NCBI GenBank assembly: GCA_014381825.1
Contig: JACNKX010000134.1
Span: forward strand, 1-33,333
Origin: Planctomycetota bacterium
Lineage (GTDB): Bacteria > Planctomycetota > Planctomycetia > Pirellulales > Pirellulaceae
Length of the DNA: 33,333 nt
Direction of reading: 5' to 3'
Shown: positions 17,466 to 33,333 of the stretch, one piece after another
Layout of the letters: each line of letters starts with the position of its first letter
How positions within the stretch are numbered: the first letter of the stretch is position 1
Program-made: the position numbers and the translations under genes
Notes under the pieces: model-generated
Databases searched by the model: none
What the model saw: the letters and a program-made list of their open reading frames with translations, nothing else
Told to the model about the DNA's origin: nothing

Positions 17466-18998
17466 CTACTCTTCGGTCGGCGAACGCACAGCGACGTCCA
17501 AAACAACGCGAGTGTCGAAAAGAATATCATGCAAAGAGCGACCATCGCGTCGTATGAACGCTAGCGCGGAGTCAGCAATAACTGCCAGCGTAAGGCCGAT
17601 GGCGGCCACCGCTAAGATGACATCGGCACCTAGCAGTTGCAGTCCCAATCCCAGCGCACCCGCCCAAAGCGGCAACATCTGAAAGACCATTCTGGCTGCC
17701 AGCGTCGCTTGACTCGGTACAAGTCCGTGACGATCGACAACTCGTATTTGAAACAACTTCTTGCCTGGCGTGATGCCCCAATAAGCTTGAACAGCAGATG
17801 CCAAAAGCGGAGCCGCCGCACCAACTAACAAAACAAGGGGCGTCACAAGCAAGCGTCCGTCGAGCATTTGTCGCAATTCATCACCGACAAAAGGATTCGT
17901 GAGTACCTGAAGCACGGTGTTGACGAGCGCGAGGTCTACCAACCAAGCCAGAGCACGTTGAACGCGTCCCGCCTTCGGAACGTCGACCGGTCGCAACGCT
18001 CGCAGGTCTAACAATAATGCGTCATAGTTTTGATAGCGATCTTCCGGCGACTTCGCCAACAACCGTGCCAGAACTGCTCGCCAACGCGCCGGCACTTCAA
18101 TAGGCCAAGGATCTGGAAACTCAACCGCCGCAGTCTTGTGCTTCTCCATGCAATCGGCAACTGTGCCACCACCGAAATCGTAGGGCAGACGGCCAAACGT
18201 CGTTTCAAATAACGTCACGCCAAGCGAATACATGTCGCTCCGAACGTCTGTCACGTCCGGATGCATCGATTCAGGCGCCATGTAGATTGGCGTTCCGGCA
18301 ATCCCAACTTCGCCATCTGCCGCTTGCGACAATCGCCTTGCCAACCCGAAGTCCGAAAGCTTTGCGACTCCGTGTGGTGCCAACAGGATGTTGCTTGGTT
18401 TGATATCACCGTGCAAGATGTCATAGCGAACCGAGTGTCGCAGCGCGTCAGCGACTTGAATCGCAATATTGACGACCTCCACGAATGGCAGTGGTCCGTC
18501 CGCGAGTTGATCGGATAGCGTCTCGCCTTCGACAAGCTCCATCGCCAGAAACGGCGAGTCCTCGTTGCGGCCCACATAATAGATATGGACAACGTTCGGA
18601 TGATTCACACGCGCCTGGGCGATGGCTTCTTGGAAAAGCCGCTGCAGTTGCTGCGTATCCTTCGCCGATTGCTCGCCCGATCGAATCACCTTCAGCGCGA
18701 CGTACCGTTGCAACGATTTGTCGAGCGCGCGATAGACACTGCCCATTCCACCTTCACCAAGGGAAGCGATGATTTCGAAGTGATCAAATGTCTTCCCGAT
18801 CCGAGCATCTTGTTCGGCTCCACCAGAAGAAGGCCCTCGAGGTTCAGCGCCAACTTCCCCTAATGGCATCGTCTCAGCAAACGCAGTGCGCAGCACGTCG
18901 CTAGAATAATGTCGGCCACAACTCGCACAAACGCCCCCATCTGCATCGTCCATCGGAACCATTTCACCACAAACACACCGATAAGAAACAACAGACAA
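17466..18998 (-). CDS. Serine/threonine protein kinase with N-terminal zinc ribbon and RDD membrane domain
   Basis: A 510-residue Hanks-type kinase. A zinc-ribbon-like cluster (C8, C10, C24, C27) precedes the kinase domain at about 74-335. The domain shows the G-loop GEGGMGSVY (81-89), Lys103 (ALKVI), the catalytic loop HGDIKPSNILL (196-206), DFG 216-218 and APE 241-243. The usual HRD is HGD, so it is a non-RD kinase, often regulated without activation-loop phosphorylation. After about residue 345 an RDD-type domain with several hydrophobic helices (LAWLVDLALVN, WGITPGKKLFQIRVVD) anchors it in the membrane. The start is TTG 18998 with GGAG 6 nt upstream; the first internal ATG (codon 13) would split the zinc ribbon. 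It lies 132 nt after the AMMECR1-like gene on the same strand and could be cotranscribed. Confidence 0.93.
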   Translation of the reverse strand: MSVVSYRCVCGEMVPMDDADGGVCASCGRHYSSDVLRTAFAETMPLGEVGAEPRGPSSGGAEQDARIGKTFDHFEIIASLGEGGMGSVYRALDKSLQRYVALKVIRSGEQSAKDTQQLQRLFQEAIAQARVNHPNVVHIYYVGRNEDSPFLAMELVEGETLSDQLADGPLPFVEVVNIAIQVADALRHSVRYDILHGDIKPSNILLAPHGVAKLSDFGLARRLSQAADGEVGIAGTPIYMAPESMHPDVTDVRSDMYSLGVTLFETTFGRLPYDFGGGTVADCMEKHKTAAVEFPDPWPIEVPARWRAVLARLLAKSPEDRYQNYDALLLDLRALRPVDVPKAGRVQRALAWLVDLALVNTVLQVLTNPFVGDELRQMLDGRLLVTPLVLLVGAAAPLLASAVQAYWGITPGKKLFQIRVVDRHGLVPSQATLAARMVFQMLPLWAGALGLGLQLLGADVILAVAAIGLTLAVIADSALAFIRRDGRSLHDILFDTRVVLDVAVRSPTEE

Positions 18999-19130: not shown

Positions 19131-21179
19131 CTACGTGTTGGATGCGCTCTCAGAAATCTCTTCACTAGTTGTTGCCAACAGCTTTAGATAGAACGAAGCG
19201 ACATGCTGAATCGTATCGACGCGGAACCACTGTCGTGTCAACTTGAAGCGTATGCCCCCCATCGCTCGCTCGGGATTCGCCGCCGAGTAGACAGAATCTG
19301 CCGTATTACACAGTCGTAGTGTTGCGGCGGCAACTTGATAACAGGCATGACGATAACACTCGACTCGTCGCTGATCGCCCACCTTCAAAGCAAGCTGATA
19401 AGCGCTGAGCAGTCCTTCGGCACGAGCACCATCGGGATAAGGATGGTCACCGTAATGGTAGTAGAACGAGCCAACATAGTCCGGGTAGATCGCGTCTTCT
19501 TCCGTATACATCAGGCGTACCATTTGATCAGCATCGTCAAAGACGAACTTCTTGTACTCCTCTTGCTGAAACTCAGCGACATCCCATAGATCGTTAATTC
19601 CCATCATCAACCACGAATCGGACGGCAGCGTTTGGTAATGCTCTTTGTGAAGGTGAGGTCTTTCGCAGAGCAGGAATCGCAACGCTTGATGAGTCTTGGC
19701 GTAAATCGCTTGCCGCTCCGCGTCGGCTTGGCAAACGTGTTGGCAGTATTGCGATAGGCCAAGAATTGCTTCGCCCGGATAATAGAACGAGAAGTATTTC
19801 TGATTGTCCTCCCACCCAACCGGCTTGTCCAAGTAGATGTGATAGTATCGAAACTCGCCATGTTCGTTGATCTCGTTACGCAGATGATGGGCAAGCCGCG
19901 CAGCAACGTCCGCAAATCGATCGTCTCGAAACAGTCGCTGATACATCGCAAGTGCGCACAACCCGATGCCGCTGCCGCCGAGCTTCGCCTTTCGATTGTA
20001 CAAAGCATAGGCGGCCTTCGTACCGTCCGCCGCTTGGTAGTCGACAAGCTGCTGAACCAAGAAGTCACTTGCCCGTTCGATAACTTCACGTCGCTGATCC
20101 GCGATAGCGGACGGCGTCGGGAGGCTTTGTGCCTGCCCCAATTGTTCGTCCAGAAGCAAAGTGATCACCCCGCCACCATGGCGCAGCAAGTTGTAATACG
20201 GATCAGTTTCCGGATCGCGTCTGGGATGCTCGTGATCTCGCTGCGTATCCGTCGCCGCATCATAGTAGTAGATGAATCGACCATCGGTTTGCAAACTATC
20301 CGCAATCCATTTCGTGCCAGCCCGCGCGGCGCAAGTTAATGAGACGTCATTCACTGCCGGAATCGGCGGCAGCCCACGATAAAGCGGAAGCCACGATCGA
20401 GGCTCTCGATCGTCCGACACGTCCTCGTTGAACCGAGTCGCATCGCGACCGCTGTCCCTCTCCGATTCCACTACTCCACTTACGAAACTCAACGACCGAA
20501 ACCGATAGTACTTCAGCGTCTCAATATCGTCGCCAGGAAACAGACGTTGAATATGCCGACGAAGTTGTGAGATTCCAAGGATCGATCGAACAAACGCATC
20601 CCCAGGCAAAACGTACCGTCGCTTTCCTTCCTTAACAATTCGAAGCCCATCAACGCCCAGTTCGAAGCGAGCTAAATTCTTCGGCACTGGTAGGGCTGAA
20701 ACTACTTGTACCTGCCAGGACGCAGCATCTCGCCAGACGATCGGCTCGCCATTTTGTCGAGCGTGAATCGGAAGCTCAGTCTTAGGTCCCGTTACGTCGA
20801 TAGTAGAATCGGAGAATTCGGAAAGCTCGACTGCCTCGGGTTCATGCACGATGAAGTCAATTTGGACTCGGCAACGCTTGAGGTCACCTAAGTCGAAATC
20901 GTCGAAGCGTTCGTGTGCAGTAGTTCGATTAATCGCCTGCCGAATGTTCTCGTATGTTGAAGAGTTAGTCGCTCGCACGACCATCAGGCGCGGGCTGTCT
21001 GGCTGATAGAGCGTTATTGCCACACCCCACAAGAACTGCGGGAGCGATGATTCCTTGAATAGCGCCGCCGCAGCGCTGGACTCTGCGTTCACACCGTTGC
21101 GGCTAACCAAACAGTTCCGGAGGTAATCGAGGAATACCACGTCGGGAGACGAAAGCAAAGTATGTTGCTGTCGCGTCAT
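19131..21179 (-). CDS. Two-domain protein: AMMECR1-like plus alpha/alpha-toroid-like
   Basis: A protein of 682 residues from ATG 21179. The N-terminal 235 residues resemble AMMECR1: RFDDFDLGDLKRCRVQIDFI followed by VHEPEAVE, then RFELGVDGLRIVKEGKRRYV and LPGDAFVR, and finally YYRFRSLSF. The family signature LRGCIG is absent at the matching place. The C-terminal 400 residues (about 280-665) look like a toroid of paired helices, as in glycosidases, lyases and epimerases acting on uronic-acid sugars: GSGIGLCALAMYQRLFRDDR, YYPGEAILGLSQY, YPDGARAEGLLSAYQLAL. I see no signal peptide. The frame is open upstream to TTG 21329, with GTG 21194 as another start (AAAGGA 10 nt before it). It is the last of the five-gene D-alanine set. 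Activity is unknown; both domain calls are by pattern only. Confidence 0.72.
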   Translation of the reverse strand: MTRQQHTLLSSPDVVFLDYLRNCLVSRNGVNAESSAAAALFKESSLPQFLWGVAITLYQPDSPRLMVVRATNSSTYENIRQAINRTTAHERFDDFDLGDLKRCRVQIDFIVHEPEAVELSEFSDSTIDVTGPKTELPIHARQNGEPIVWRDAASWQVQVVSALPVPKNLARFELGVDGLRIVKEGKRRYVLPGDAFVRSILGISQLRRHIQRLFPGDDIETLKYYRFRSLSFVSGVVESERDSGRDATRFNEDVSDDREPRSWLPLYRGLPPIPAVNDVSLTCAARAGTKWIADSLQTDGRFIYYYDAATDTQRDHEHPRRDPETDPYYNLLRHGGGVITLLLDEQLGQAQSLPTPSAIADQRREVIERASDFLVQQLVDYQAADGTKAAYALYNRKAKLGGSGIGLCALAMYQRLFRDDRFADVAARLAHHLRNEINEHGEFRYYHIYLDKPVGWEDNQKYFSFYYPGEAILGLSQYCQHVCQADAERQAIYAKTHQALRFLLCERPHLHKEHYQTLPSDSWLMMGINDLWDVAEFQQEEYKKFVFDDADQMVRLMYTEEDAIYPDYVGSFYYHYGDHPYPDGARAEGLLSAYQLALKVGDQRRVECYRHACYQVAAATLRLCNTADSVYSAANPERAMGGIRFKLTRQWFRVDTIQHVASFYLKLLATTSEEISESASNT

Positions 21180-21394
21180 GTCCGAGCCCTGCACTGTTGC
21201 CGAATCCTTTGCGAAATGGGATCGGACTGCGATCGCACCGTAAGAGTCACTCTGAATTGACGCATAGTCAGCGGCGATCCTACGGTAATCAATATTGCCC
21301 GATCCAATACCCGACGATCTATCAAACAACTCGCTTATATTCTGCCTTGGGTCACGGAGCGCACAAACGTCATGCCTCCCGTGCTAGTGCCGGT

Positions 21395-22843
21395 CTATTG
21401 TGCAGCTGCAGGCACGATCGGAAACGCCTTGAGTATCGCCTCCGACACCTTCACGAATCCCGCCGCGCCCTGCGCTTTTAGAAGTAACACGTCTCCAGAT
21501 TTGAGAATGGAAACCAAGGCATCAGCAACTTCGTGCGTCGAATCGAAATGCCCTTGGTGTAATCTCGTATGATTCAAGAGTTGTCGCATGGGATGAATGT
21601 TCTTCCCGAAGGTGTAGACAGCATCTAAATCCGAACGTGCGAGTGACCTTGCAACTCGCACGTACGCGCCTTTAGCGAAACGCACATGGTCATTGAATCC
21701 ACCGATGACTGCAATTTTCTTTCCCACAGATGTTGTGTTGCTCAAGTCGTCAACGGCCGACAAAAGTGCGTACTCATTGTTGCTGTAGTGTTGATCGTAA
21801 AAGACAAAGTCACCATCTGGGTGGCGCAGCGTAAATCGCCGGCCCGTCGACTTGTACGAAGACCTAAACTGTACCGCATCATGAACCGCCTGGTCGATGT
21901 CCAGACCGAGCAGTCCAACGGCAAGTAGTGCCCCCAACGTGCTTGCTGGCGCGTGCGAATGAAACAGGCCTAACTGATATCGATACCGCTCTCCCAGAAT
22001 GTCCGCCTCGATATTCCATTTACCGTTCTCGAACCGACTGGCAATAAGCCTCGCATCACAGCGTGATTCACGGCCATATGTATAACATCTCGAATCCGGG
22101 CGCCTCTGCGAGATAGCTGCCCTCAGCTGCGGGTAGAAGAATGATTCACGATTGATAATGATCGTACCGTTTGCTTGCAAACCGGATACTGCGTCAGCCT
22201 TATCGACGATGACATTCTCCAACCCACCATGTGTTCCGAGATGGCACGGATTCGCGTTAGTAAAGACGCAGATGTGCGGCCTGATAAGCTGAGATCGACG
22301 AGTACCTACACCTCGATCTGACACAGCAGCTTCAACTAAACAAATTCGATGCTCGTCGGATAGATTACCCAGTGACAAGAGCACGGGAACATCTAAGTTA
22401 GCGGACGATCGGGAATAATAGACTGGTACAGTTTGCTTACTGATCAACTCGCCAAGGAGAAGTTTGCATCCTGTCTTACCTTGCGTTCCCGTTATCAATA
22501 CTCGTTCCGCCCTCGATGCGTCTCGCGCGGCTAACGCGATTCGTTCGAGGGCGAGCCTCGTGTTTTCGACAATGAGAGTTGGAGCCGTAGTGTGCTTCGC
22601 TTGTTCTGGCGTGGCAACGATTGCCGCTGGTCTCTTGGCCAAGATCGCGTCTAGTTTTGAAAAAGTGTTCGGAACTTGCCGGCCCCATTGGCGTGGAGTC
22701 GTGATGAATACCAAGTCTCCTTCCTTCACTAGATCGACAACAACTGACAGCCCCGAGATCGACAGTTTATCGCGTAGCAAGTTTACCCATATTCCACCAG
22801 TAACTTGTGCGATTGTTGCGGGAGACAAGATGATTAGTGACAT
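21395..22843 (-). CDS. Mur ligase family protein, MurF-like
   Basis: A 482-residue ATP-dependent amino-acid ligase of the Mur family. It has an N-terminal MurF-like domain (VTGGIWVNLLRDKLSISGLS). Its P-loop is VLITGTQGKTGCK (about 115-127), with GKTG where most Mur ligases have GKTT/S. The central domain has TNANPCHLGTHGGLENVI then DKADAV (equivalent to TNxxxxHL and the AKxE lysine region). The third domain has YDQHYSNNEYALLSAVDDL and KIAVIGGFNDH, matching the DDSYNANP and AVLGDM segments of MurF. MurF joins D-Ala-D-Ala to a UDP-MurNAc tripeptide; the sequence is divergent enough that the acceptor may differ. It starts 10 nt after the CapA-like gene and is followed by the AMMECR1-like gene. 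Confidence 0.88.
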   Translation of the reverse strand: MSLIILSPATIAQVTGGIWVNLLRDKLSISGLSVVVDLVKEGDLVFITTPRQWGRQVPNTFSKLDAILAKRPAAIVATPEQAKHTTAPTLIVENTRLALERIALAARDASRAERVLITGTQGKTGCKLLLGELISKQTVPVYYSRSSANLDVPVLLSLGNLSDEHRICLVEAAVSDRGVGTRRSQLIRPHICVFTNANPCHLGTHGGLENVIVDKADAVSGLQANGTIIINRESFFYPQLRAAISQRRPDSRCYTYGRESRCDARLIASRFENGKWNIEADILGERYRYQLGLFHSHAPASTLGALLAVGLLGLDIDQAVHDAVQFRSSYKSTGRRFTLRHPDGDFVFYDQHYSNNEYALLSAVDDLSNTTSVGKKIAVIGGFNDHVRFAKGAYVRVARSLARSDLDAVYTFGKNIHPMRQLLNHTRLHQGHFDSTHEVADALVSILKSGDVLLLKAQGAAGFVKVSEAILKAFPIVPAAAQ

Positions 22844-22853
22844 GACGGATCGC

Positions 22854-25046
22854 TCAGTGAGATAAGAGCGCCTTCTGGCAAAAGGGGGTATCGACGAGTT
22901 GTGTCACGTTGTCGTTGCGATGGATCACGATCGTAGAATGCAGCAATCTGGCCGCGATTGTTCTTCTTTCAATTCGTTCTAAAACGTAGTTAGTATCCAG
23001 ACGATTTGCCTCGCAAATGAACGACACTTTGTCGGCCACGCTTGCGGCTTGATTTTCTTGGGCGGTGCTGGGTGACAATCGCAGGGTCTTCCCATTTACA
23101 TCAAATGACAAGCCGGACATCTTCAGTTCGTGTTCCCCAATCACAACGGCTGGGAGCGTTTCGCCCCGCTTAACGACTTCGATAAACATCCCCGTCTGGG
23201 GGCTGTCCAGATCGAAATCCGCGAGGCCGCTGTTGCTTCTCAACGCTTCGACATTACGGCGAAATACGGCGTTCAGGCTCCTGCGAGAGCTGCCCCATCG
23301 AAGCATGGCCCCAACCTGGTCATAGACGCCTATGAAAACAAGATCTTGTTCAGGAATGATTTCGTACTTCGCTCGAAACGCTGAAAGCAATTGCCCCCAA
23401 GACACTGCGAATCCTTGCAGTTGTTCACGGAGATTAAGCAGCACTCGCTCTTCAGTCTTGTACAAACAATCGTGCAACATTCGATTCTTCACGGAATGCG
23501 GTAACCGCCCACTCCAGTCGACACCAGCGCACGTTGCAGGAATCTCACCATCAAACACGTAGAGCGGTCCCACATAGAAATGGTCCAATCCTTGAATAGT
23601 CTTGAGATGATACGAAGTCTCTGAATCGTATAAGCCCCAAAAAAGATCGTAGCATCCCGGGACCATTCGCCGTGGCGGCCTGACGACACAGATCTCGCGC
23701 GTCGCGCCTTTTTCCTCCCACTGACACGGCAAGGCGGTGCCTTGCGCAAACGGATGTCGTTCGCGACACTCAAGCGTCCCCTGACGCGAGCGTAGCAAGA
23801 CCTCAACGACCCAGTTGCCATCCATGGGACGCGTATTCGTAAGCTCGACATCAAGTCGAAATCCACTCCGATGTCCCACCGCCTCAGCGCTGCTGACGGA
23901 CGACAACATAATCCCATTCTCGAAGCTGCATCCCCAGTCCGCATCGGCCTTGGGCAAAGGATCGCTAACGTTTCCACTCGGTTCATCCCGTATCTGAGAC
24001 GCCCATTGATACTGAGAATTCATATCAACTTCATGGACTCGAGCACGCTCTTGTTCTTGTCGTCGGCCATTAGTCAGGATAGTAAATCCATCGTCCGTTT
24101 CTTCAAGAGTTGCTTCTTCCCTTAGGTCGCGTTCCAAGACCTGCCTAACGTGACTCACAGTTTCTGAATCAGCGAGATCGACGCGGCACGGAGCCAGAGT
24201 TACCGGTGTGATGTCAACTGACGTTATGTAATGTTCGTCGATTGTCAGCTTGAAGATCGCTGAGCGGGGCATGAGACGATGTCCCGAGACGCGGTCACTG
24301 AGGAATGTCCCCATGTCATAGATGATGGGCTTGCCCTGATAGATTTCGACGCCGTGCATTAAGTGCGACGAATGTCCCAGGATGCCGTCAAATCCCATAT
24401 CGATGAGCTGTCGTGCCGCATCTCTGACGTGCTTCGGCGGCTCGACAACCCAGTTCTCGATCCAGTGAGGCGATAGCAAAACGATGTGTGCGTTTCGCTT
24501 CGCTTCATTCATCGTCGCGGCGACAAATTCGGGAATCTCGGCGGAAGTGTCAGTTCTTGCTACGCCAGGAGTCTCGGCAGACGCGCACGGTAGCCGCGGT
24601 TTAACACAGCAAACACTAATAATGGCGACGACGGTCTTACCGCAATTAAAGTATGCAGGCGCTAGGGCTTCATCGAGATTGTTGCCGCTCCCAGGCGCCA
24701 GGACGCGATTCGTCGTCAACCAACTGCGGTGATCGCCCAAACCTCGGATACCGTAGTCCAACGTGTGATTGTTAGCCGTGGTAACGACCGAAAATCGAAG
24801 GTCACTTAATAGCGTCGCCAATCCATCAGTCAGTCGAAAGTAATACGGCTTGTGCTCTCCCTTTGACATTGGAATGTCATGCGGTGTAATGACAGCTTCG
24901 ACATTCCCGACGACGCCATCCGCAACTTCGAACATCTTTCGGATTTCAGGCGCAACGATTCCATCGATTCCAGCCTGAAGGTAGGGGTAGTGCAAGTCAC
25001 GGGCGAGCAACATGTCGCCGACGGCGATTAATGACTGCGCTGTCAT
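22854..25046 (-). CDS. CapA/PgsA-family metallophosphoesterase-like protein with long extension
   Basis: A 730-residue protein. Residues 1-285 are a PGA_cap (CapA/PgsA) domain of the calcineurin-like fold, with AVGDMLLARD (8-17), VVGNVEAVIT, VTTANNHTLDYG, IVLLSPHWIENWV and GHSSHLMHGVEIYQGKPIIY. These supply the metal-binding Asp, Asn and His residues. In Bacillus the family is needed for poly-gamma-glutamate synthesis and is membrane-anchored. This protein has no N-terminal hydrophobic segment, so it is probably cytoplasmic. The 445-residue C-terminal part has a beta-sandwich-like stretch (FRLDVELTNTRPMDGNWVVE) and a helical end and is unassigned. It starts 12 nt after alr and ends 10 nt before the MurF-like gene, so these are coexpressed. 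Confidence 0.9.
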   Translation of the reverse strand: MTAQSLIAVGDMLLARDLHYPYLQAGIDGIVAPEIRKMFEVADGVVGNVEAVITPHDIPMSKGEHKPYYFRLTDGLATLLSDLRFSVVTTANNHTLDYGIRGLGDHRSWLTTNRVLAPGSGNNLDEALAPAYFNCGKTVVAIISVCCVKPRLPCASAETPGVARTDTSAEIPEFVAATMNEAKRNAHIVLLSPHWIENWVVEPPKHVRDAARQLIDMGFDGILGHSSHLMHGVEIYQGKPIIYDMGTFLSDRVSGHRLMPRSAIFKLTIDEHYITSVDITPVTLAPCRVDLADSETVSHVRQVLERDLREEATLEETDDGFTILTNGRRQEQERARVHEVDMNSQYQWASQIRDEPSGNVSDPLPKADADWGCSFENGIMLSSVSSAEAVGHRSGFRLDVELTNTRPMDGNWVVEVLLRSRQGTLECRERHPFAQGTALPCQWEEKGATREICVVRPPRRMVPGCYDLFWGLYDSETSYHLKTIQGLDHFYVGPLYVFDGEIPATCAGVDWSGRLPHSVKNRMLHDCLYKTEERVLLNLREQLQGFAVSWGQLLSAFRAKYEIIPEQDLVFIGVYDQVGAMLRWGSSRRSLNAVFRRNVEALRSNSGLADFDLDSPQTGMFIEVVKRGETLPAVVIGEHELKMSGLSFDVNGKTLRLSPSTAQENQAASVADKVSFICEANRLDTNYVLERIERRTIAARLLHSTIVIHRNDNVTQLVDTPFCQKALLSH

Positions 25047-25058
25047 GAAACTTACGAT

Positions 25059-26300
25059 TTAACGTGACTGCGGCGCGTGACTGAGATCACCTGCGCCTAG
25101 GTTTATTGGCCGGCCTATCGCTCGTTCGAAACTTGCTGAATGGCTTCCGCGAGTTAGCACTCGTGGAAGCCGATATTTAAATCCGCAAAGAATTTCCCAG
25201 GTAACGGTCGGCATTCGATCAGCCCAATCGTCAACGGTGATCGTTTCCCCTCCATCAGTGCCAAGGAGCGTTACGACGTCGAGTGGTCGTACGGATGACA
25301 TATCGGTCACATCAATCATGAGTTGATCCATCGTGATCGCACCGATTTGACGAGCGCGTTGGCCGTGAGTGAGAACGTCGATTTGTCCGGACAAGGCCCG
25401 TGGAACTCCATCGGCGTATCCGATGCTCACGACCGCGATTCGCATTGTCGATGGTGCAGTAAACTGTCCGCCGTAACTGATGCTCGTCCCGGCTGGAACT
25501 TCCTTGACTTGTGATACGCGGGCCCTTACCCGGAGCGCGGGCTTCAGTGAAGTCTGTACTTCCAGACTGCAAAACGGAGTTAAGCCGTAGATCCCCAGTC
25601 CGACCCGCACCATATCGAAATGCGTCGCTGGATCGCGGATCGTTCCCGCCGTGTTCGCCAAATGTGTTAGCACCCGCCCCATTCCGTCACGTTCCAGCCG
25701 CGCGAGTACATTCGCGAATTGCTGATGCTGGAGCCGCATGACCTGAGAGTCTCGCTCCTCTGCACAAGCGAAGTGCGAGTAGATCCCTGTGGTCGAGAGA
25801 TTTGGGTCGCATTTGATATGTTGCCAAAGTGTCCGAGCATCGCACGTCGGCGTACCCAGTCGCGACATCCCCGTGTCGATGTTCAAGTGCACATCGACAC
25901 GGGGACGTTCTCCCATCTCAATTGATTCGGAGAGTTGACGGGCATGCTCTACGTCGCAAACAGTCGCACATAACGCATAGCGTGAAAGCTCGCGTATTTC
26001 CTGTTTATCTCGCACCGCGCCGAAGATCAGAATTGGGGCATCAACTCCCGCATCGCGGATTTCAATCGCCTCAGGGACGGTCGCGACGCCCAGCCAACTC
26101 GCGCCAGCAGACAAAGCTTCGTGAGAGATCGCGACAGCCCCGTGCCCGTACGCGTCGGCTTTGACGACGGCCATCAGTTCTGTCTGCGGTGACAGAAGCT
26201 CCCGCAGATTGCGCACGTTCGAGTTCACGGCATCGAGGTCAACCTCGATCCACGCACGTCTTTTCCGAGCGTCGCTTGGCGTTCTATATGGTTGGAGCAT
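25059..26300 (-). CDS. alr: Alanine racemase
   Basis: A PLP enzyme that interconverts L- and D-alanine. The PLP lysine is Lys47 in AVVKADAYGHG, and the second catalytic base is Tyr276 in TSISYGGQFTAP. Other family features are HLNIDTGMSRLGT (about 138-150), GYADGVPR and MDQLMIDVTDM. At 413 residues it is somewhat longer than typical (about 370), mainly because of a C-terminal extension of about 30 residues. The ATG at 26300 overlaps the last 17 nt of ddl, so its translation is coupled to ddl. Together the two genes should provide D-Ala-D-Ala. It may be the general racemase of the cell or a dedicated second copy; that cannot be decided from this window. Confidence 0.96.
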   Translation of the reverse strand: MLQPYRTPSDARKRRAWIEVDLDAVNSNVRNLRELLSPQTELMAVVKADAYGHGAVAISHEALSAGASWLGVATVPEAIEIRDAGVDAPILIFGAVRDKQEIRELSRYALCATVCDVEHARQLSESIEMGERPRVDVHLNIDTGMSRLGTPTCDARTLWQHIKCDPNLSTTGIYSHFACAEERDSQVMRLQHQQFANVLARLERDGMGRVLTHLANTAGTIRDPATHFDMVRVGLGIYGLTPFCSLEVQTSLKPALRVRARVSQVKEVPAGTSISYGGQFTAPSTMRIAVVSIGYADGVPRALSGQIDVLTHGQRARQIGAITMDQLMIDVTDMSSVRPLDVVTLLGTDGGETITVDDWADRMPTVTWEILCGFKYRLPRVLTRGSHSASFERAIGRPINLGAGDLSHAPQSR

Positions 26301-27357
26301 ACTGATATGTCCGCTTCAGCGTTTTCTTCTCGTGATGTCTCTCAAGTCCCAGAGCGATCAATTGGTCCAACAGTTCTGAATAACCGATTCCAGACGCTGT
26401 CCAAAGCTGGGGATACATGGATATCTCGGTGAATCCGGGAATAGTATTTATCTCGTTCACGTAGAGTTGATCGTCGGTCAGCGAAAGGAATAAATCGACT
26501 CGCGCCATCCCGGCACAATCGATCGCGCGATAAGCGTCAATCGCCAACTTCTGTGCCTGTTGGGCCAGTTGAACATCCAGTGGAGCGGGAATCAGCAGTT
26601 CCGAGTCGTCACTAACGTACTTGGCCGCATAGCTGTAGAACGCTGCCTTGGGTCGGATCTCACCAATCGTACTTGCTTGTGGATCGTCATTTCCCAAGAT
26701 TGCAATCTCAAGTTCACGGGGCCGAATTCCCTGCTCGACCACGATACGGTGATCGTAGCAGCATGCCTCTTCTAGCCCTGCGATCAGCTCCGTCTGATTG
26801 TTGCAACGGGATATCCCGACGCTCGATCCAAGGTTGGCAGGTTTCGTGAAAACAGGATACGACACAGCCGCTTCGATACGTTCGACAACTCGATCGGCAG
26901 AATCAGATAACTGCTTCGACGTAACAAGGATCCACGGCAGGATCGGGAATCCATGTGCTTGCATGATCTGTTTGAAGACGGCTTTGTCCATCCCAGTCGC
27001 CGAAGCAACAACGCCCGGGCCGACGTATGGAACGTCCATCATCTCAAGCAGTCCCTGAATCGCTCCATCTTCGCCGTGAGTTCCATGCAACACCGGAAAA
27101 GCGATGTCTGTTTGGTGAGCAAGCAACGGAAATGGATCGGTCGCCGACCCGATGATCCCCTTTTGCGCGTTGTGGGGCGTCGTGTGCGGGATCCAGTTTC
27201 CCTGCTGGTCGAGATAGACCGGAAGTGGATCATACCTCTGCCGGTTCAGTGTATCGATAACCGACATAGCTGAAGCAATGGAGACGTCATGCTCCCCAGA
27301 CCGACCGCCGAAGAGGATCGCGACGCGCAGCTTTTCGTGAAGACTACGTTGAACCAT
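26284..27357 (-). CDS. ddl: D-alanine--D-alanine ligase
   Basis: An ATP-grasp ligase that joins two D-alanines. It has 357 residues, with GGRSGEHDVSIASA (start of domain 1), HGTHGEDGAIQGLLEMM then VPYVGPG and MDK, the ATP-binding VFTKPANLGSSVGI, and the C-terminal NEINTIPGFTEISMYP. In the omega loop it has FYSYAAKY, the Tyr-containing form typical of D-Ala-D-Ala ligases, in contrast to D-Ala-D-lactate enzymes. The start is ATG 27357, with GGGGGC just upstream. A longer frame begins at TTG 27378 with no better site. It starts 17 nt after the DUF1559 gene and overlaps alr by 17 nt. Confidence 0.96.
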   Translation of the reverse strand: MVQRSLHEKLRVAILFGGRSGEHDVSIASAMSVIDTLNRQRYDPLPVYLDQQGNWIPHTTPHNAQKGIIGSATDPFPLLAHQTDIAFPVLHGTHGEDGAIQGLLEMMDVPYVGPGVVASATGMDKAVFKQIMQAHGFPILPWILVTSKQLSDSADRVVERIEAAVSYPVFTKPANLGSSVGISRCNNQTELIAGLEEACCYDHRIVVEQGIRPRELEIAILGNDDPQASTIGEIRPKAAFYSYAAKYVSDDSELLIPAPLDVQLAQQAQKLAIDAYRAIDCAGMARVDLFLSLTDDQLYVNEINTIPGFTEISMYPQLWTASGIGYSELLDQLIALGLERHHEKKTLKRTYQYAPTI

Positions 27358-27374
27358 AAGTGCCCCCAAGACTC

Positions 27375-28337
27375 TCAAAAGTCTCCGATAGGTTCCCCAT
27401 CAGCCCGAACTCCCAGTTTTTGGTATGTTCCCCAAGTGCTGGGGCTGTTCACGTTGCCGATTCGCGACTCGATGGTTTCCGAAATAAATCGCACGGCTCC
27501 GTCCGACATGGCAAACATTACTCCGCCGGGATGCTGGCTGCTGTAGCCCCAAGACGCACCCGGTAAAAGCAAGTTGCCGATTCCCGTGCCCGATTGCAGT
27601 TCGAAGCTCACATTACCGTAGAATCCGACCGTACAATGATTGGGCAGGCCTACGTTGCAAGGGAAATCAGTTGCTCCAGCCCAGATCCCAGCGCCGGGTT
27701 TGGAGGTTCCCTTCTTAATTTCTAAGGTTGCTCGTTCACCAACTGCAAACGTGTTGCTCAAACCGTCCAAGATATCGCGAAACTGATGACTGCTCCGAAA
27801 GTAGAACAGGCCATCGGCTGGAGAAACATTGTCAACGCCCATGCAGCCAATATAGTTCGTCTTGGAGACAGCAATGTCCAGGCCGGCAGGATCAAGATGC
27901 CGATCGTCGTTGAGGTGGTTTCCGGTATCGCTAGGACAGATGAACCCTTTAATGGGCGTCGCAAGAACATCAACTTTCACGGGATCTGCCAATGCCTCTA
28001 GAAGACTTTGCGGTCGGTTCGGTCGTAGCGTATCGTGCGCGGGTCCCTGCTCGATCATCGGCATCAGCAGCACATGCCATGACCACGAAGAAAGGTCGCC
28101 TGGAAAACGGCTCGACGGAATTGCTCCGGGCGGGAGGCGTTTGAACGTATCATGATAGTTGTGCATTGCCAGAACAATCTGTTTCAAGTTGTTACGACAA
28201 GACATTCGCCGCGCCGCTTCGCGAGCCGCTTGAACCGCAGGCAGGAGCAGCGCCACAAGCACGCCGATGATGGCGATGACGACGAGGAGTTCCACGAGCG
28301 TGAAGGCAGCACGTCGAGATTCGAGTATGGGTTTCAT
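27375..28337 (-). CDS. DUF1559 pseudopilin-like secreted protein
   Basis: A 320-residue member of the large planctomycete DUF1559 group. The N-terminus is a prepilin signal: a short basic leader, then FTLVELLVVIAIIGVLVALL (residues 12-31), including the conserved Glu. The following AVQAAREAARRMSCRNNLKQ stretch and the C-terminal HPGGVMFAMSDGAVRFI are the family marks. It is probably cleaved by a prepilin peptidase and sits at the cell surface or in a pilus-like structure. The ATG 28337 is 30 nt after the end of the LRR membrane protein, and ddl begins 17 nt after its stop. A 5-bp-stem hairpin overlaps its stop codon. Its role in the neighbouring D-alanine genes is not apparent; it may be there by chance. 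Confidence 0.94.
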   Translation of the reverse strand: MKPILESRRAAFTLVELLVVIAIIGVLVALLLPAVQAAREAARRMSCRNNLKQIVLAMHNYHDTFKRLPPGAIPSSRFPGDLSSWSWHVLLMPMIEQGPAHDTLRPNRPQSLLEALADPVKVDVLATPIKGFICPSDTGNHLNDDRHLDPAGLDIAVSKTNYIGCMGVDNVSPADGLFYFRSSHQFRDILDGLSNTFAVGERATLEIKKGTSKPGAGIWAGATDFPCNVGLPNHCTVGFYGNVSFELQSGTGIGNLLLPGASWGYSSQHPGGVMFAMSDGAVRFISETIESRIGNVNSPSTWGTYQKLGVRADGEPIGDF

Positions 28338-28367
28338 AATGACTCGCTTAGATGGAGGAGTGAACGA

Positions 28368-29468
28368 TTAGTCCGACGACGGGGGGCCATTGTCAGGCAT
28401 GGGGCGTTTGCGAGGTCGCGTTTTATAGCCAGGAAAATAGATTAGGCAGTCGGGGAGAGACTCTTGAAGTTCCTCGATCGCCTCGACGGAAACATTGCAC
28501 CCTTTGAGACGGAGTGAACGAAGGTGTCGGAACTCCGACAAGACTTGCAGGCCGTTGTCGGATATCTTTGTTCCTTCTAGGTGCAATGTATCTAGGGATG
28601 CTAACGACTGAAGTGCTTTCAAGCCCTCGTCGGTGATGGCCGTGTTGTCGAGCGAGAGCCGTTCAAGGGTGCTCAACGAGGCTAGGCTGGCAAGACCCTC
28701 TCCCGTGATTTGTGTTCGTGAGAGCACCAAGGAACGTAGTGCGTGGCACTCGCCAATATGCTGGAGGCCCTTATCAGTGATCCGCGTCCCGTCTAGCCGC
28801 AAACTGATCAGATGCAGGAGATTTCGGATGTGAATTAGATCATCATCCACAATGAGTGCCTCTTCGCAAATCAACGTCTGAAGTGATGTGGTGGACGCGA
28901 GCGGCGCTAATCGTTTGCCCTTGACGTCACGGTACGAAACTCCGATTACGGTTCCACTTCCCCAAGTGATTGAAGGATCCGCACCGACCGCGTTCCAGTC
29001 GTCGCGGATTTGCTGATCTCGGTAAGGTTGCCACACCTGCCATCCTTTGATTCCAAGTGCGCCAAACATAGGTAGCAGAAGGACCGTAGTCCGTACGACA
29101 ACACCCATCGTCGAAACATTTGGCGCGGACTTCCAAGGCTCGTGCGAATGCCAACCTGTCAAGATCGTAAACAGCAAGACGATCCCAGGCAGATAGCACA
29201 AAATCCACCGCGGAAGGCCAAAGTAGACGAACTCAATCCCGACGAACCCATCTTCAGGGACGGAACCGAGGTTAAAGTAACGACGCATCACGAGGATCGC
29301 GAACACCGACCAGCAAGCAGCAACAATCAGGAGAACGACGCGCAAGGGTCGATGGTGTCGATATGCAAGTAAAGGGAGGTACAATGCCCTGGCCCATGGC
29401 CACATGGTCATGCCGAGTACCACTCCGACGAGTAATAGAAAGAGTCCCATAATTTGAACGAGCGTCAT
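28368..29468 (-). CDS. Leucine-rich-repeat membrane protein
   Basis: A 366-residue protein with four probable transmembrane segments in the first 150 residues (for example MGLFLLLVGVVLGMTMW, VVLLIVAACWSVFAILV, WILCYLPGIVLLFTILTG). From about residue 195 to 345 come about six 24-residue leucine-rich repeats of the form LxxLxLxxTxITDxGL, with clear copies at LRLDGTRITDKGLQHIG, LVLSRTQITGEGLASLAS and LSLDNTAITDEGLKALQ. The repeats probably face the outside or periplasm and bind a partner. The tail is basic and Pro-rich. Its ATG overlaps the stop of the giant Asp-rich protein as ATGA, so the two are translationally coupled and likely work together. Function is unknown. Confidence 0.9.
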   Translation of the reverse strand: MTLVQIMGLFLLLVGVVLGMTMWPWARALYLPLLAYRHHRPLRVVLLIVAACWSVFAILVMRRYFNLGSVPEDGFVGIEFVYFGLPRWILCYLPGIVLLFTILTGWHSHEPWKSAPNVSTMGVVVRTTVLLLPMFGALGIKGWQVWQPYRDQQIRDDWNAVGADPSITWGSGTVIGVSYRDVKGKRLAPLASTTSLQTLICEEALIVDDDLIHIRNLLHLISLRLDGTRITDKGLQHIGECHALRSLVLSRTQITGEGLASLASLSTLERLSLDNTAITDEGLKALQSLASLDTLHLEGTKISDNGLQVLSEFRHLRSLRLKGCNVSVEAIEELQESLPDCLIYFPGYKTRPRKRPMPDNGPPSSD

Positions 29469-32400
29469 TGCCCTCCGCTAATTGCCTTGATCTGTTTCCA
29501 AAACGCCCAAGTCGTGTGGATATCGTAGTGGAACTGGTAGGAGTGGTTGGATCGATCCAGCCCGCCGACCATTGTTGTGGCGTAACCGAGTGTGTTCAAA
29601 TTAATATTGATAAAACGGTCCGTTGGATCTTCTATCTGTCCGAGTGGCTTAGCGTTTGAAACCCCGAGAAAAGCTAGGACCTCGTAGGCGTCCCTGTATT
29701 CACCGTCTTCATAAAAGATGAGATCCGTCCACGGTTCATTGGGGTCATCTAATCGCCGTTGAAGTACATCGCCAATGCTCCGGTAGATGTAAGGCCAACT
29801 GGGAACGGCTACGATTCCAAGGTTAGTGTGCTTCCCCCAATTGTTGACTTCCCACCACCCCAATGCGTTATCGTGCTCGTTATGAATGTTGTACCATTCG
29901 CCAGATGCCTTTCCGGTTTTTTGGAACAGGAACTTATCAGCGGTCTGGGCTGTGACCACATCACTGGTCGGAAAGTGGTGATAGAAGTCCCGGTTGCTGC
30001 CATTGAAGAACCGGGCATCATTCGCATCATTTCCATATGCTCCTGACGAAACCGCAGCCTCCATTGCGACGTAATTGCTTATGAGTTGCGTATCCAGATT
30101 CTCGTTCGACCACAGTCGGAGTGCTTCGCCCGCGACCACATTACCCATGCTGTGTGCGATAACGGTCACTTCGCGACCGTCATTCTTCAACTCTGCCAAG
30201 ACATTTTTGAGCGCGGCTCCAGAGCGAAAAGCTTGAAGCTCGCTCGCGTTATATGTCTGATTAACTTCCTCAATAGGTACAGGCCACGGTCCATCTAGTT
30301 CATCGGCAAGAGTCGGCCAGTTGAAGGCACCGAATCGCCCAGTATACCCTTGCCAATACATACGTTTCACGGCTGTCTGTGCGGATGCTGCCTTATCAAA
30401 TGGAGTCACGTTCCAACCGTGGACAAGCAGCACGTAGTCGTCGCCATCAAAGCCTTCGTGTTGGTTGATGGACGCCGTCTGAACCTGAGAATAGTCGGGA
30501 TATGTTCGGAAGAATAGGCTTTGAACCATCGCTTGATCTGCCAACACCTCGTAAACGTCGTAAAATGCTCTAATGTCGTTCAACCCTACCATCACGCTAT
30601 CCTCCAACTTGCGAGTGCGCCCCGTCGGGTATCGAATTTCGGCTTCGTACCCCAAACTGTTCCAGTCGGGCGGCGGCGTCTCCCATTCCGGGCCAGTCGA
30701 AACGGCCTCAAATAGGAATGGGTTGTAGCCAGCCGTGATTTCCGGCGGTGCGACAATTGTGGGCGAATTTGGGCCAGTCTTTTCAAGCTTCGCGACGCGA
30801 TTGGAGAAGTGAGGATTCGTCGTGCGATCCGTGATCTGTCCCTGATTCGTCACATGACTTAACGCGTTGGTGTGCTGTCCGCTGAAGTCTCTGAATAAAT
30901 TGATGCGGAGTTCGTCTTTCATCAGGTTTTGGAATCCAGTAGTCAAGATGAGTCCCGATGCATCACTCGATAGCGCAATGAGCGATTCATCCAGAAAGAC
31001 GTTGAAAGGAGCGAGATCTTCTAAATCTCGGGAGCGGCTAACGCTCCCATCGGCTCCGTCCGCCTGCAAGATATCCTCTAACGGCTCGTCCGACTGAACA
31101 CCGTCTACTAGTTCATAGTCCCCGTCGTGGTCGTTGTTGTACCAGAATATGAGGCTTGAGTCGGCCACATTAGCATGATCGATCGTACCATCACGATCAC
31201 CATCGACTGCCGCGTTAATATCGACGACGGCAAACTTCGCTTCGTCTTTCAGATCGATCACTTTCTTCGAATAGTCCGAAATTGGTTTCACTTCGACGGA
31301 GATGGAATCGCCTTTCGCTTGCCCGGTACTGGCCAAGCCTTCGACCCAAATCCTTAGCTCTTTCTGTGATGCGGGAAGAGTTAAGGTGGTTGAAGGCAGC
31401 AGTCGCACTTTGCCGCTGGGAGCTATCCCAGGAATCCAGACGCTGATGTTGTCTGGAAAACTCAAGTCCAGACTGACATCGCCAGAAATGTCCGAGTCGA
31501 ACTTAATGAGACCCTCAGTATAGCCGCTGCTGTCGTCGGGAATCTCGGTCGCCGTAAAATCTTGCACCAGGACACCATCAACCTTATGTCCTTTCGAGAA
31601 GTCAGCGTTAGTCTGAATGAAGGCGCCATACTCCTGCTCCTCCCATTCGTTAAGCCCTTCATCAATGAAGCCGATCGGGATTGCTGGGATGTCCAGCTGA
31701 ACGTCGATGTCGATCGCTTCCACGCGTGCCGAGTCGCTCAACAGGCCGCTGGGATTGTCAGGAACAAAGTTCGCAACGATCAGTTGCTCGCTCGACGAGG
31801 AAATGCCCTCGATTAGTAGACTTACGGACAGATCTGTTGTACCGCCTGAATCGATCTGCCGAGCGTTTGAAAAACTGGATGGCGCGGGCGTGATGACCGT
31901 GCCGGTATCTGCCTCTTGAATCTCATAAATCCTAAAGTGCCCATTCGGATAACTTAACCACCACTTCCCGTCGGTGCCGTTAGCGGCTCCGATCGTGAGT
32001 GTCGCGTGGACGACTTCTTCGTCCTCTGGATCAGCCGAGTGGGGCGACGAGACAGTCTCTTTGGGCTCGGTTACTGTCGCTGGGCAGACGTTGTTGTCCG
32101 TGACAGGCTGCGAACAGGATCCGTCTGAGTTTTGTTCATCGTGGTCGTCGTTCACCGGGATGAGAGCCACAAGATGGTCTTCTTCATATTCACTAATATT
32201 CGGAATCACAAGATCGATGGAGAGGACTGACAGTTTCAATTCGTCCGTTCCCGTGCCGCTGGCTTCGGAAGGTGCGAACGTCAGCTTCATTTCTCCCGGA
32301 ACGCCCGTTGTGATTGAGACACCTTCGATCATCACGCTCAGATCTACAACTTCGGCCTCTTGATCCGACGCGAGGTCCTCGCTGGGCACGTTCAACGTTC

Positions 32401-33333
32401 CGCCAGTCACTTGCACCCACTCGCCGTCATCTTCGCTTTCTTCGTCATCCACCAGCGTCCAGACTTTCGTTCCTTCGGCGGTCGAAAGCGTCCAGGTGCC
32501 TTTTAATTTCGCCGGATTGATAATGATGGTTCCAGCCTGCAGCTCGCTATCACCCGAGACAATCATATCTTCGCCTTGGTGATCTGGTATTGGCTGGTCG
32601 CCGCCCTTCTCTTCGTCGTGGTCTTTGTTCAAGGGCACTAAACCGGAGACATCCGCGTCGTCTTCTTCCCACCAATTGACCATCACTTTTAAGTCAACAT
32701 CGATAACGGTCGCGACCTCCGTGGCAGTGGCAGGTTCGGGCTCATCATCAGTTCCTTCTTCGGGATCCCCGGCAGACGCCTCGCCAGATGGAGTGAATGT
32801 TACGGTAAGCGATTGATCCCACGGCGAGCCACTAACGCTTACTCCATCCACGTAAAGCGTGAAGGAAATCCCGGCTTCTGTAGCAGTGATCTCGTCTGAT
32901 TCGTCTCCGTTGGAGATCTTCTCGCGGTCTTCACTTTCTGATGATTGCCGATAAACGCGCAGGCCCCCGCCAAAACTGATTTGGTACGTCCCAGTAACGT
33001 CTTTTCCTGTTATCGAGACACTCCATTGCTTGACTTCGTCGTCTCCGTCTTCGAGAGGTCCAGTTGCCAAGTAGTCGTGAATCGCGTTCCCATCGTCATT
33101 ATGTTTTTCACGATCGAAATCGTTATTCCATTGCAAAAGTAGCGGTCCGCCTGAGATTGCTACGTTGTAGCTTGGGCCATCACAGCCCCCGCCATCGTCG
33201 TCGCTATCCGTATCAGTGTCGGAGTCCGTATCGCAGTCGGTATCTGCGTCGGTATCTGTGTCGCAATCACTGTCGGTATCGCAGTCCGTGTCGCTATCCG
33301 TGTCCGTGTCACAGTCGCTATCGGTGTCGCAGT
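29465..33333 (-). CDS. Giant Asp-rich modular surface protein with alpha/beta-hydrolase domain, 5' end outside window
   Basis: An open frame of about 1,288 residues runs to the right edge with no stop, so the start is missing. It opens with about 46 residues of an Asp-X repeat (X = Thr, Ser, Cys, Ala), likely a calcium-binding stalk. Then come four or five related beta-rich modules of about 150 residues. Each has an N-x-D-H/F-D motif (WNNDFDRE, LNKDHDEE, VNDDHDEQ, YNNDHDGD) and a strand pair of the WTLSTAEGTKVWTL / VEGVSI type. The last 390 residues hold an alpha/beta-hydrolase: YVLLVHGWNVTPF (the oxyanion region) and VTVIAHSMGNVVAGEALRL with the nucleophile serine near 30150. An acid and a histidine should follow. 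It is probably exported and acidic. It is coupled to the LRR gene by an ATGA overlap. Confidence 0.88.
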   Translation of the reverse strand, partial: CDTDSDCDTDTDSDTDCDTDSDCDTDTDADTDCDTDSDTDTDSDDDGGGCDGPSYNVAISGGPLLLQWNNDFDREKHNDDGNAIHDYLATGPLEDGDDEVKQWSVSITGKDVTGTYQISFGGGLRVYRQSSESEDREKISNGDESDEITATEAGISFTLYVDGVSVSGSPWDQSLTVTFTPSGEASAGDPEEGTDDEPEPATATEVATVIDVDLKVMVNWWEEDDADVSGLVPLNKDHDEEKGGDQPIPDHQGEDMIVSGDSELQAGTIIINPAKLKGTWTLSTAEGTKVWTLVDDEESEDDGEWVQVTGGTLNVPSEDLASDQEAEVVDLSVMIEGVSITTGVPGEMKLTFAPSEASGTGTDELKLSVLSIDLVIPNISEYEEDHLVALIPVNDDHDEQNSDGSCSQPVTDNNVCPATVTEPKETVSSPHSADPEDEEVVHATLTIGAANGTDGKWWLSYPNGHFRIYEIQEADTGTVITPAPSSFSNARQIDSGGTTDLSVSLLIEGISSSSEQLIVANFVPDNPSGLLSDSARVEAIDIDVQLDIPAIPIGFIDEGLNEWEEQEYGAFIQTNADFSKGHKVDGVLVQDFTATEIPDDSSGYTEGLIKFDSDISGDVSLDLSFPDNISVWIPGIAPSGKVRLLPSTTLTLPASQKELRIWVEGLASTGQAKGDSISVEVKPISDYSKKVIDLKDEAKFAVVDINAAVDGDRDGTIDHANVADSSLIFWYNNDHDGDYELVDGVQSDEPLEDILQADGADGSVSRSRDLEDLAPFNVFLDESLIALSSDASGLILTTGFQNLMKDELRINLFRDFSGQHTNALSHVTNQGQITDRTTNPHFSNRVAKLEKTGPNSPTIVAPPEITAGYNPFLFEAVSTGPEWETPPPDWNSLGYEAEIRYPTGRTRKLEDSVMVGLNDIRAFYDVYEVLADQAMVQSLFFRTYPDYSQVQTASINQHEGFDGDDYVLLVHGWNVTPFDKAASAQTAVKRMYWQGYTGRFGAFNWPTLADELDGPWPVPIEEVNQTYNASELQAFRSGAALKNVLAELKNDGREVTVIAHSMGNVVAGEALRLWSNENLDTQLISNYVAMEAAVSSGAYGNDANDARFFNGSNRDFYHHFPTSDVVTAQTADKFLFQKTGKASGEWYNIHNEHDNALGWWEVNNWGKHTNLGIVAVPSWPYIYRSIGDVLQRRLDDPNEPWTDLIFYEDGEYRDAYEVLAFLGVSNAKPLGQIEDPTDRFININLNTLGYATTMVGGLDRSNHSYQFHYDIHTTWAFWKQIKAISGGQ
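33194..33333. repeat. Asp-X dipeptide-encoding DNA repeat (6-bp period)
   Basis: On the minus strand the last 140 bp is a degenerate 6-bp repeat, GAC/GAT followed by ACG/ACC/AGC/TGC/GCA. It encodes an alternating Asp-X stretch and continues beyond the window edge. The X positions are Thr, Ser, Ala and about six Cys. Such arrays change length by slippage. Confidence 0.9.

Follow-up and report, generated by a model that had tools for sequence, protein, structure and literature searches.

Alanine racemase (Alr), D-alanine–D-alanine ligase (Ddl) and Mur ligases are read as cell wall genes almost reflexively, since in murein precursor synthesis the Alr-Ddl-MurF branch makes and uses D-Ala-D-Ala with these same three enzyme families. 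In the PgsBCA/CapBCA system a PGA_cap domain likewise stands beside a Mur-ligase-fold enzyme, and CapA there is membrane-anchored. In cyanophycin synthetase CphA1 a Mur-ligase-like M domain adds an amine to Asp side chains (PMC9262961, in excerpt). Here we describe a locus in which relatives of such enzymes occur with no detected murein route. The window (the whole stretch of DNA that was analyzed) comprises 33,333 nt of contig JACNKX010000134.1, assembly GCA_014381825.1, from a Planctomycetota bacterium of the Pirellulaceae. Its minus strand carries, at 19131-33331, a run of eight co-directional genes encoding a giant Asp-repeat protein, a leucine-rich-repeat (LRR) protein, a DUF1559 pilin-like protein, Ddl, Alr, a CapA-like protein, a MurF-like ligase and a protein with a helical toroid (hereafter the toroid). 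We tentatively read this run as a non-murein cassette that would build an amide-linked, D-Ala-containing decoration in the cytosol for cell-surface material, a reading that we rate as quite possible but short of probable; the best explanation within it is that the material decorated is encoded or handled at the 5′ end of the run. Taken together, the cassette and the pilin-like and Asp-repeat genes suggest a so far undescribed cell-surface modification.

D-alanine genes and the murein pathway of the host

An earlier note on this DNA had picked out five minus-strand genes, ddl to toroid, and the open reading frame (ORF) positions agree with the spacing it gave: ddl and alr overlap by 17 nt, a gap of 12 nt separates alr from the capA-like gene, and one of 10 nt separates that gene from the murF-like gene. 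These five are the 3′ part of the run. The note missed three co-directional genes upstream (27375-33331), each at most 30 nt from the next: the giant and LRR genes overlap by 4 nt, 30 nt lie between LRR and DUF1559, and 17 nt between DUF1559 and the ddl ATG. That ATG, at 27357, is most likely the ddl start, given that a ddl from the same genus starts at the corresponding Met. The murF-like and toroid genes are 65 nt apart if the toroid starts at a TTG, and 215 nt if it starts at ATG 21179.

Ddl, Alr, PGA_cap and Mur_ligase_M/C all score above their Pfam cut-offs in the window proteins. Alr is canonical (TIGR00492, 380 bits against a cut-off of 168), as is Ddl (NF002528, 423.8 bits against 262, with TIGR01205 also above cut-off). 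In an alignment with E. coli DdlB, the SSVG loop, FYxY..KY stretch and metal-site residues are all conserved in the window Ddl, so D-Ala-D-Ala is its expected product. Its FYSYAAKY stretch retains the Tyr that we take to be the mark of a D-Ala-D-Ala type pocket.

Does the host, whose genome (9.69 Mb in 238 contigs) has a completeness of 99.93% and a contamination of 2.71%, have other copies? In searches of this genome, Ala_racemase_C and PGA_cap were each found in the window gene only. PF07478 matched the window gene (242.5 bits), a gene on contig C227 (107.8 bits) and one on C87 (35.7 bits). The C227 gene (G000:C227:154330-154887) encodes a Ddl-like ATP-grasp protein above the Pfam cut-off, with key stretches that differ from canonical Ddl, and the C87 match is read as a biotin carboxylase; the only canonical ddl is the window gene. 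Matches resembling the C227 protein, 28-33% identical to the window Ddl, occur in many of 30 relatives.

Mur_ligase_M occurs in four host genes: the window gene, a MurF-like domain fused to a toroid on contig C180, a gene on C98 that is read as FolC, and a MurE-like gene on C236. The earlier note had called the window MurF-like protein divergent, and it scores 152.2 bits against the TIGR01143 cut-off of 288.6. It retains GTxGKT and the Lys that is presumably the residue carbamylated in Mur ligases, but other motifs are altered (HA..S for the HN..N of HNxxN, YSNN for YNAN); a changed acceptor and weak ATP binding are both possible explanations. The MurE-like ligase (G000:C236:68309-68908; L055:9974-11473), 32% identical to E. 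coli MurE, is retained in the host although no murein acceptor genes were detected there, and similar 507-aa frames are present in two same-genus assemblies, G001 and G002. Where a DNPR-type motif would presumably be expected, the C236 protein reads differently, and it may have another substrate.

The rest of the murein pathway was sought with a joined probe of E. coli MurA, MurC, MurD, MraY, MurG and FtsI (MurB, MurI, MurJ, GT51 and LD-transpeptidases lay outside it). In the host the best match to these six enzymes had E 1.6e-9 and came from the MurE-like gene; across 19 genomes of the family, host included, nothing was better than 2.4e-13. In contrast, all 58 other planctomycetes searched across the phylum, with five candidates scored per genome, gave a best match of 1.6e-58 or better. 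Within the order but outside the family, 11 genomes were searched: three (G019, G028, G029) had MurA, MurC and MurD matches to about 1e-110, three (G020, G023, G024) were strong for MurG only, and five had weak matches only. Mahajan et al. are said to have reported in 2020 that many Planctomycetales lost peptidoglycan genes. Since the family lacks canonical murein matches while the same probe works in other planctomycetes, the host cassette, judged by sequence, is not an ordinary wall set. This is so despite the single copies, because the remaining wall-pathway genes are missing as well: to the question of second copies raised by the earlier note, the answer is that there is no other alr or canonical ddl, and that the other MurF-like domain is the one fused to a toroid. 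The dedicated peptide or polymer pathway using D-alanine that the note proposed is supported by these results (sole Ala_racemase_C, PGA_cap and canonical ddl, no canonical murein matches). Its alternative of an added peptidoglycan modification is unsupported because none of the six murein probes found a canonical match in the host.

Asp-X proteins, the sister locus and relatives

The window giant has an acidic run of Asp-X dipeptides at 33200-33331 and, towards the C-terminus, an alpha/beta hydrolase domain of DUF900 type. Defining an Asp-X run as at least 10 Asp-X dipeptides (X = S, T, A, C, N, G, M or L), we searched 59 loci (771 kb, duplicates included) and found runs only in the window, C180, G066, MAG-47, MAG-46 and M30B19. 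The group of close toroid relatives has 12 entries, of which L040 and L041 are the same contig, and L042, L043, L048, L049 and L094 are not evaluable, having little or no sequence upstream of the toroid (for L094, of its capA); an Asp-X run is present in 6 of the 6 evaluable loci, the window included. The Asp-X protein is in all six upstream of, and co-directional with, the toroid, and M30B19 holds a second one downstream. No run occurs in 16 distant-toroid loci (213 kb, several contigs being only 3-7 kb), in 21 other planctomycete loci (307 kb, including L044, where the contig ends within the giant) or in 40 stretches of 20 kb from the host's own genome (800 kb). Own contig starts were sampled as well, since such repeats may break assemblies, and one of 40 (569 kb) has a run. 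The run is at the edge of contig C3, in a giant (G000:C3:2-1453, L192) that over 116 aa shows 33% similarity to the giant of C180. We picked the control stretches ourselves, not at random, and 5 of the 40 'interior' ones begin at a contig start. By our arithmetic the own-genome rate of one run in 1.37 Mb corresponds to a probability of about 0.015 for a chance run within 20 kb, so chance is a very unlikely source of four independent runs. Synonymous codons are mixed within the runs (GAC 97, GAT 88 in C180), which are therefore kept as protein and not a product of simple DNA slippage.

The C180 locus of the host is a sister to that in the window. It encodes, in order, a giant (1566 aa), an ankyrin-type protein (by reading), a DUF1559 protein, a DegT aminotransferase and the MurF-like domain fused to a toroid; it has no ddl or alr. 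The DUF1559 proteins of the two loci are 71% identical over 314 aa and the toroids 61% identical, whereas the Mur ligases share 20% over 116 aa (E 0.015), which indicates that DUF1559 and toroid travelled together while the ligase and donor enzymes changed. No clear homology was found between the window and C180 giants (best E 0.05). DUF1559 paralogues are numerous in the host (20 matches at E 1e-30 or better, window gene counted), with that of C180 the closest; the next by score is 45% identical, and in some shorter matches, of 97-134 aa at the N-terminus, identity is 56-67%. Planctopirus limnophila has 68 DUF1559 paralogues of unknown function (PMC10632474, in excerpt).

In the same-genus assembly G001, contig C359 carries a giant, a 248-aa protein, DUF1559 (80% identical to that of the window) and ddl (64%), and then ends. 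At this junction the ratio of nonsynonymous to synonymous difference (pN/pS) is 0.16 for DUF1559 and 0.35 for ddl; synonymous divergence (dS) is saturated or high in these comparisons, and pN/pS alone is quoted. Several further toroid pieces lie at G001 contig edges. G002, of the same genus, has of the cassette set only a broken toroid on contig C192 (L048:5925-7099), with two matched pieces, in-frame stops and an unmatched middle, which is apparently decaying. PLM2.Bin2, which belongs to the family but to another genus, has a capA (33%) truncated at the contig edge and, 41 nt downstream of it, a toroid (52%). Genome searches covered 392 genomes of the phylum, 396 of the order and 241 of the family with two candidates scored per genome, and absences in them are therefore soft. 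They gave toroid matches in 15 of the 392 at 1e-10 and in 2 of the 396 at 1e-25, host included in both.

The CapA-like and toroid proteins

Similarity to the lasso-peptide epimerase MslH is seen in the CapA-like protein (E 6.6e-20 in the NCBIfam scan, 7.5e-13 in a separate comparison), which scores 70.9 bits against an equivalog cut-off of 700. Comparison with the Ca-binding and catalytic residues of MslH (D11, E44, N87, H88, D91, H259, H261 and H295) shows that N93, H94, D97, H194 and H228 align, that I196 stands at His261, and that D11 and E50 are matched by reading only. The earlier note had associated this family with poly-gamma-glutamate synthesis, an association that finds no support here: CapC/PgsC (PF14102) has no match in the host genome (among 14 controls it matched Bacillus subtilis only), and a hydropathy scan showed no signal peptide or hydrophobic anchor on the CapA-like protein. 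Part of its long C-terminal region (residues ~562-662) resembles the N-terminal domain of the toroid family, with an hhalign probability of 57.8 (E 1e-4), which is suggestive only, and a BLAST E of 6e-9 in a database of only 15 proteins. If this is right, the same AMMECR1-like domain would be present in two proteins of the run. A PDB sequence search with the C-terminal 348 aa gave no match below E 0.5, and an AlphaFold model of the protein (mean predicted local distance difference test score [pLDDT] 31.6, 2 sequences) was useless and was not used.

The toroid itself has no Pfam family above threshold (AMMECR1, PF01871, E 0.12). Among its relatives, too, the AMMECR1 match stays under the Pfam cut-off (E 8.9e-5 at 42% identity; 22.5 bits against a gathering score of 25 in L077). 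Across seven toroid sequences H384, D571, E638 and H709 are invariant. In a predicted model (mean pLDDT 69.8, 8 sequences) an alpha/beta domain at the N-terminus is followed by a helical toroid, and Foldseek comparison of this model with the PDB gave 12 chains at E ≤0.001. The N-terminal domain matches 1zq7, which we take to be an AMMECR1-family protein, by fold (E 1.7e-4). The other top matches include a glucose 2-epimerase, a GH76 enzyme, a polysaccharide lyase, complement C4 and squalene-hopene cyclase, with cellobiose 2-epimerases just below the top 12 (1.3e-3). The model shows a clear barrel fold, without singling out its closest kin. Of the AMMECR1/toroid label given earlier, then, the toroid half is borne out by the predicted model, and the AMMECR1 half has a fold match behind it but a sequence score under the Pfam cut-off.

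Several toroid relatives have neighbors of note. Directly upstream of the toroid in four loci (L078:1986-3476, L095:8199-9812, L096:8241-9947, L097:8136-9764) is an HTTM protein, presumably vitamin-K-carboxylase-like, identified by Pfam in two of them and by evident similarity in the remaining two. A 33% identical relative from an uncultured bacterium (L101:5929-7869) lies in a locus with glycosyltransferases and rfb-like genes (the latter read from sequence), and the close toroid locus G066 is near a type I polyketide synthase, also read from sequence. Hydropathy indicates a moderately hydrophobic N-terminal stretch in the L077 and L095 toroids.

Table 1. Genes of the minus-strand run, in the order of transcription
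Gene product	Position	Strand	Remarks	Basis
Giant protein	29465..33331	(-)	5′ end beyond contig	Pfam domain scan and reading of repeats
Leucine-rich-repeat protein	28368..29468	(-)	366 aa	Pfam and hydropathy
DUF1559 pilin-like protein	27375..28337	(-)	Prepilin N-methylation motif, H-X9-DG	Pfam and NCBIfam
ddl, D-alanine–D-alanine ligase	26284..27357	(-)	ORF can start at TTG 27378	Pfam and NF002528
alr, alanine racemase	25059..26300	(-)		Pfam and TIGR00492
CapA/PGA_cap-like metallo-enzyme	22854..25046	(-)	PGA_cap at residues 6-251	Pfam
MurF-like ligase	21395..22843	(-)	Mur_ligase_M/C	Pfam
AMMECR1-like domain plus alpha/alpha toroid	19131..21329	(-)	Start may be ATG 21179	Predicted fold

The hydropathy scan found no membrane segment in the CapA-like protein, the toroid or the other enzymes; such segments are present in the DUF1559 and LRR proteins, near the N-terminus in the latter. 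A co-directional Ser/Thr kinase gene with an RDD membrane domain (17466-18998) lies 132 nt downstream of the toroid. Contamination of the contig was ruled out by the DUF1559 and toroid paralogues on C180 and by the DUF1559-ddl junction in an independent same-genus assembly. There was no sign in composition of a horizontal island (G+C content of cluster genes 0.51-0.57, window 0.54). Scans for promoters (7, against 11.5 in shuffles) and terminators (21, against 14.4) were uninformative.

Possible products and comparison with known systems

What might the cassette make? Alr would supply D-Ala, Ddl would convert it to D-Ala-D-Ala, and the MurF-like ligase would use ATP to join the dipeptide to a carboxylate other than that of UDP-MurNAc-tripeptide. 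The toroid and the CapA-like metallo-enzyme would process or epimerise the acceptor or the product, whose destination would be a surface protein or its glycan. The best acceptor candidates would be the Asp-X repeat protein and the DUF1559 pilin-like protein; because the M domain of CphA1 amidates Asp side chains, an Asp-X run would, by analogy, be a chemically reasonable acceptor. At C180 the same machinery would work with a different ligase and a different amine donor (via DegT). If true, this would mean that wall enzymes have been recruited to surface-protein or glycan modification, it would give a genomic handle on DUF1559 and the AMMECR1-like domain, and it would make planctomycete envelope composition testable by mass spectrometry.

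The gene content, the single copies, the murein genes missing at the sensitivity used, the shared shell with swapped enzymes and the association of toroid with Asp-X are all observed. Several points nevertheless weigh against a cassette for surface decoration, starting with the fact that its reactions, acceptor and destination are what we infer. The murein absence refers to six E. coli probes only. With HNxxN altered, activity of the MurF-like ligase is not assured. No transporter was recognized in the run, and the enzymes look cytosolic by hydropathy whereas the candidate acceptors seem to be secreted. The full five-gene order, whose conservation the earlier note had proposed to test, occurs in 1 of 241 family genomes (two candidates scored per genome), the host alone; pairs of neighbors are seen again, DUF1559-ddl within the genus and capA-toroid outside it. 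The G001 contig stops inside ddl, alr and capA were not found in that assembly, and its only MurF-like sequence is a 27% piece at another contig edge. As to the Asp-X association, MAG-46, MAG-47 and M30B19 share synteny and have toroids that are 80-88% identical, so that the six loci amount to about four independent contexts. No run occurs in L045, L046, L047 or L050, four of the 21 'other' loci, each with 30-90 aa from the C-terminus of a toroid, although L046 and L050 do have several kb upstream. The downstream side of the C3 giant is unassembled, and Ddl and Alr occur together with an Asp-X protein in the window only.

A serious if unlikely rival has D-Ala-D-Ala attached to a carboxyl sugar in a capsule or lipopolysaccharide-like glycan, with the toroid acting on the sugar and the pilin-like and Asp-X gene products not being acceptors. 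We take it seriously because the toroid is epimerase-like (glucose 2-epimerase and GH76 are among its 12 best fold chains, and cellobiose 2-epimerases fall just below) and because the L101 locus has glycosyltransferases beside rfb-like genes; DegT enzymes, moreover, commonly make amino sugars. However, by Pfam none of the eight genes encodes a glycosyltransferase or sugar-nucleotide enzyme, and it is DUF1559 (at two own loci) and Asp-X genes that accompany the toroid. The same recurring surface-type partners speak against a small-molecule pathway, in which a soluble D-Ala-D-Ala conjugate (a signal, decoy or antibiotic-like compound) would be secreted. This we consider decidedly unlikely, as the 17 window ORFs include no peptide synthetase or exporter by Pfam (short precursor peptides were not looked for), although the MslH likeness of the CapA-like protein and the polyketide synthase near G066 do point that way. 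A bolder version of surface decoration makes the giant Asp-X repeat protein itself the backbone, whose Asp side chains would be amidated without murein by exchangeable enzymes, Alr-Ddl-MurF-like here and DegT-MurF-like in the sister locus. It is a long shot, in our opinion; if true, the product would be a protein-based, D-Ala-D-Ala-bearing equivalent of a wall polymer, or a cyanophycin-like envelope layer.

Could the genes after all be an ordinary or residual wall set, either the last murein remnant or part of a full pathway missed in the assembly? The canonical Alr and Ddl and the MurE-like gene on C236 would fit. So would published work, which in the excerpts seen also counts against a non-murein cassette: genes essential for peptidoglycan synthesis in all planctomycetal species investigated (PMC5147048), and peptidoglycan genes, diaminopimelic acid and lysozyme effects in planctomycetes, Rhodopirellula baltica included (PMC4432640). 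The relation of R. baltica to the host family was not established here. With 19 of 19 family genomes lacking a canonical match for six murein enzymes that the probe detects elsewhere in the order and phylum, a MurF-like protein far under the MurF cut-off, and a sibling locus without ddl and alr, we regard a wall set as very improbable. We give almost no credence to a poly-gamma-glutamate-like homopolymer made by the MurF-like ligase as a CapB-type polymerase with CapA. The PGA_cap domain does adjoin a Mur-ligase-fold protein, but the missing CapC and membrane anchor and the MurF-like character of the ligase argue otherwise, and Ddl and Alr would be left unexplained.

How, then, does a surface-decoration cassette compare with described systems? 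By the sequence features tested, the locus is not a member of murein synthesis, PgsBCA, cyanophycin synthetase or the van ligases. Its parts belong to known families; no such cluster is named in the open-licence PMC papers that our searches listed, as judged by titles and abstract openings, nor was the combination, lacking a detected murein route and linked to toroid and Asp-X, met there. Unlike murein synthesis, the cassette comes without detected canonical MurA, MurC, MurD, MraY, MurG or FtsI and is linked to pilin-like and Asp-X proteins. Compared with PgsBCA/CapBCA, it has a MurF-like ligase and an unanchored CapA, and CapC was not found in the host genome. MslH has the PGA_cap/calcineurin fold of the CapA-like protein, and most of its catalytic residues align there; its metal ligand His261 is, however, Ile here, and the scanned window ORFs include no lasso genes. 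VanG/VanI-type clusters also pair a ddl-like gene with a racemase, whereas the pocket here is apparently of D-Ala-D-Ala type, the scanned window ORFs include no van partner genes, and the van ligase models among the matches listed (25 of 48 families) are all below their cut-offs. N-acylglucosamine and cellobiose 2-epimerases and GH76 enzymes share the predicted alpha/alpha barrel of the toroid at only ~8-14% identity and lack its extra AMMECR1-like domain; the polysaccharide lyase, squalene-hopene cyclase and complement C4 match about as well. The window domain scans found no CphA1-type fusion of N, ATP-grasp G and Mur-like M domains. In contrast to CphA1, no G domain is fused to the ligase here, ribosomes would make the backbone and D-Ala-D-Ala would serve as the amine; the two are nonetheless alike in combining a Mur-ligase fold with an Asp-rich backbone, and CphA1 thereby offers a chemical precedent for the proposed acceptor.

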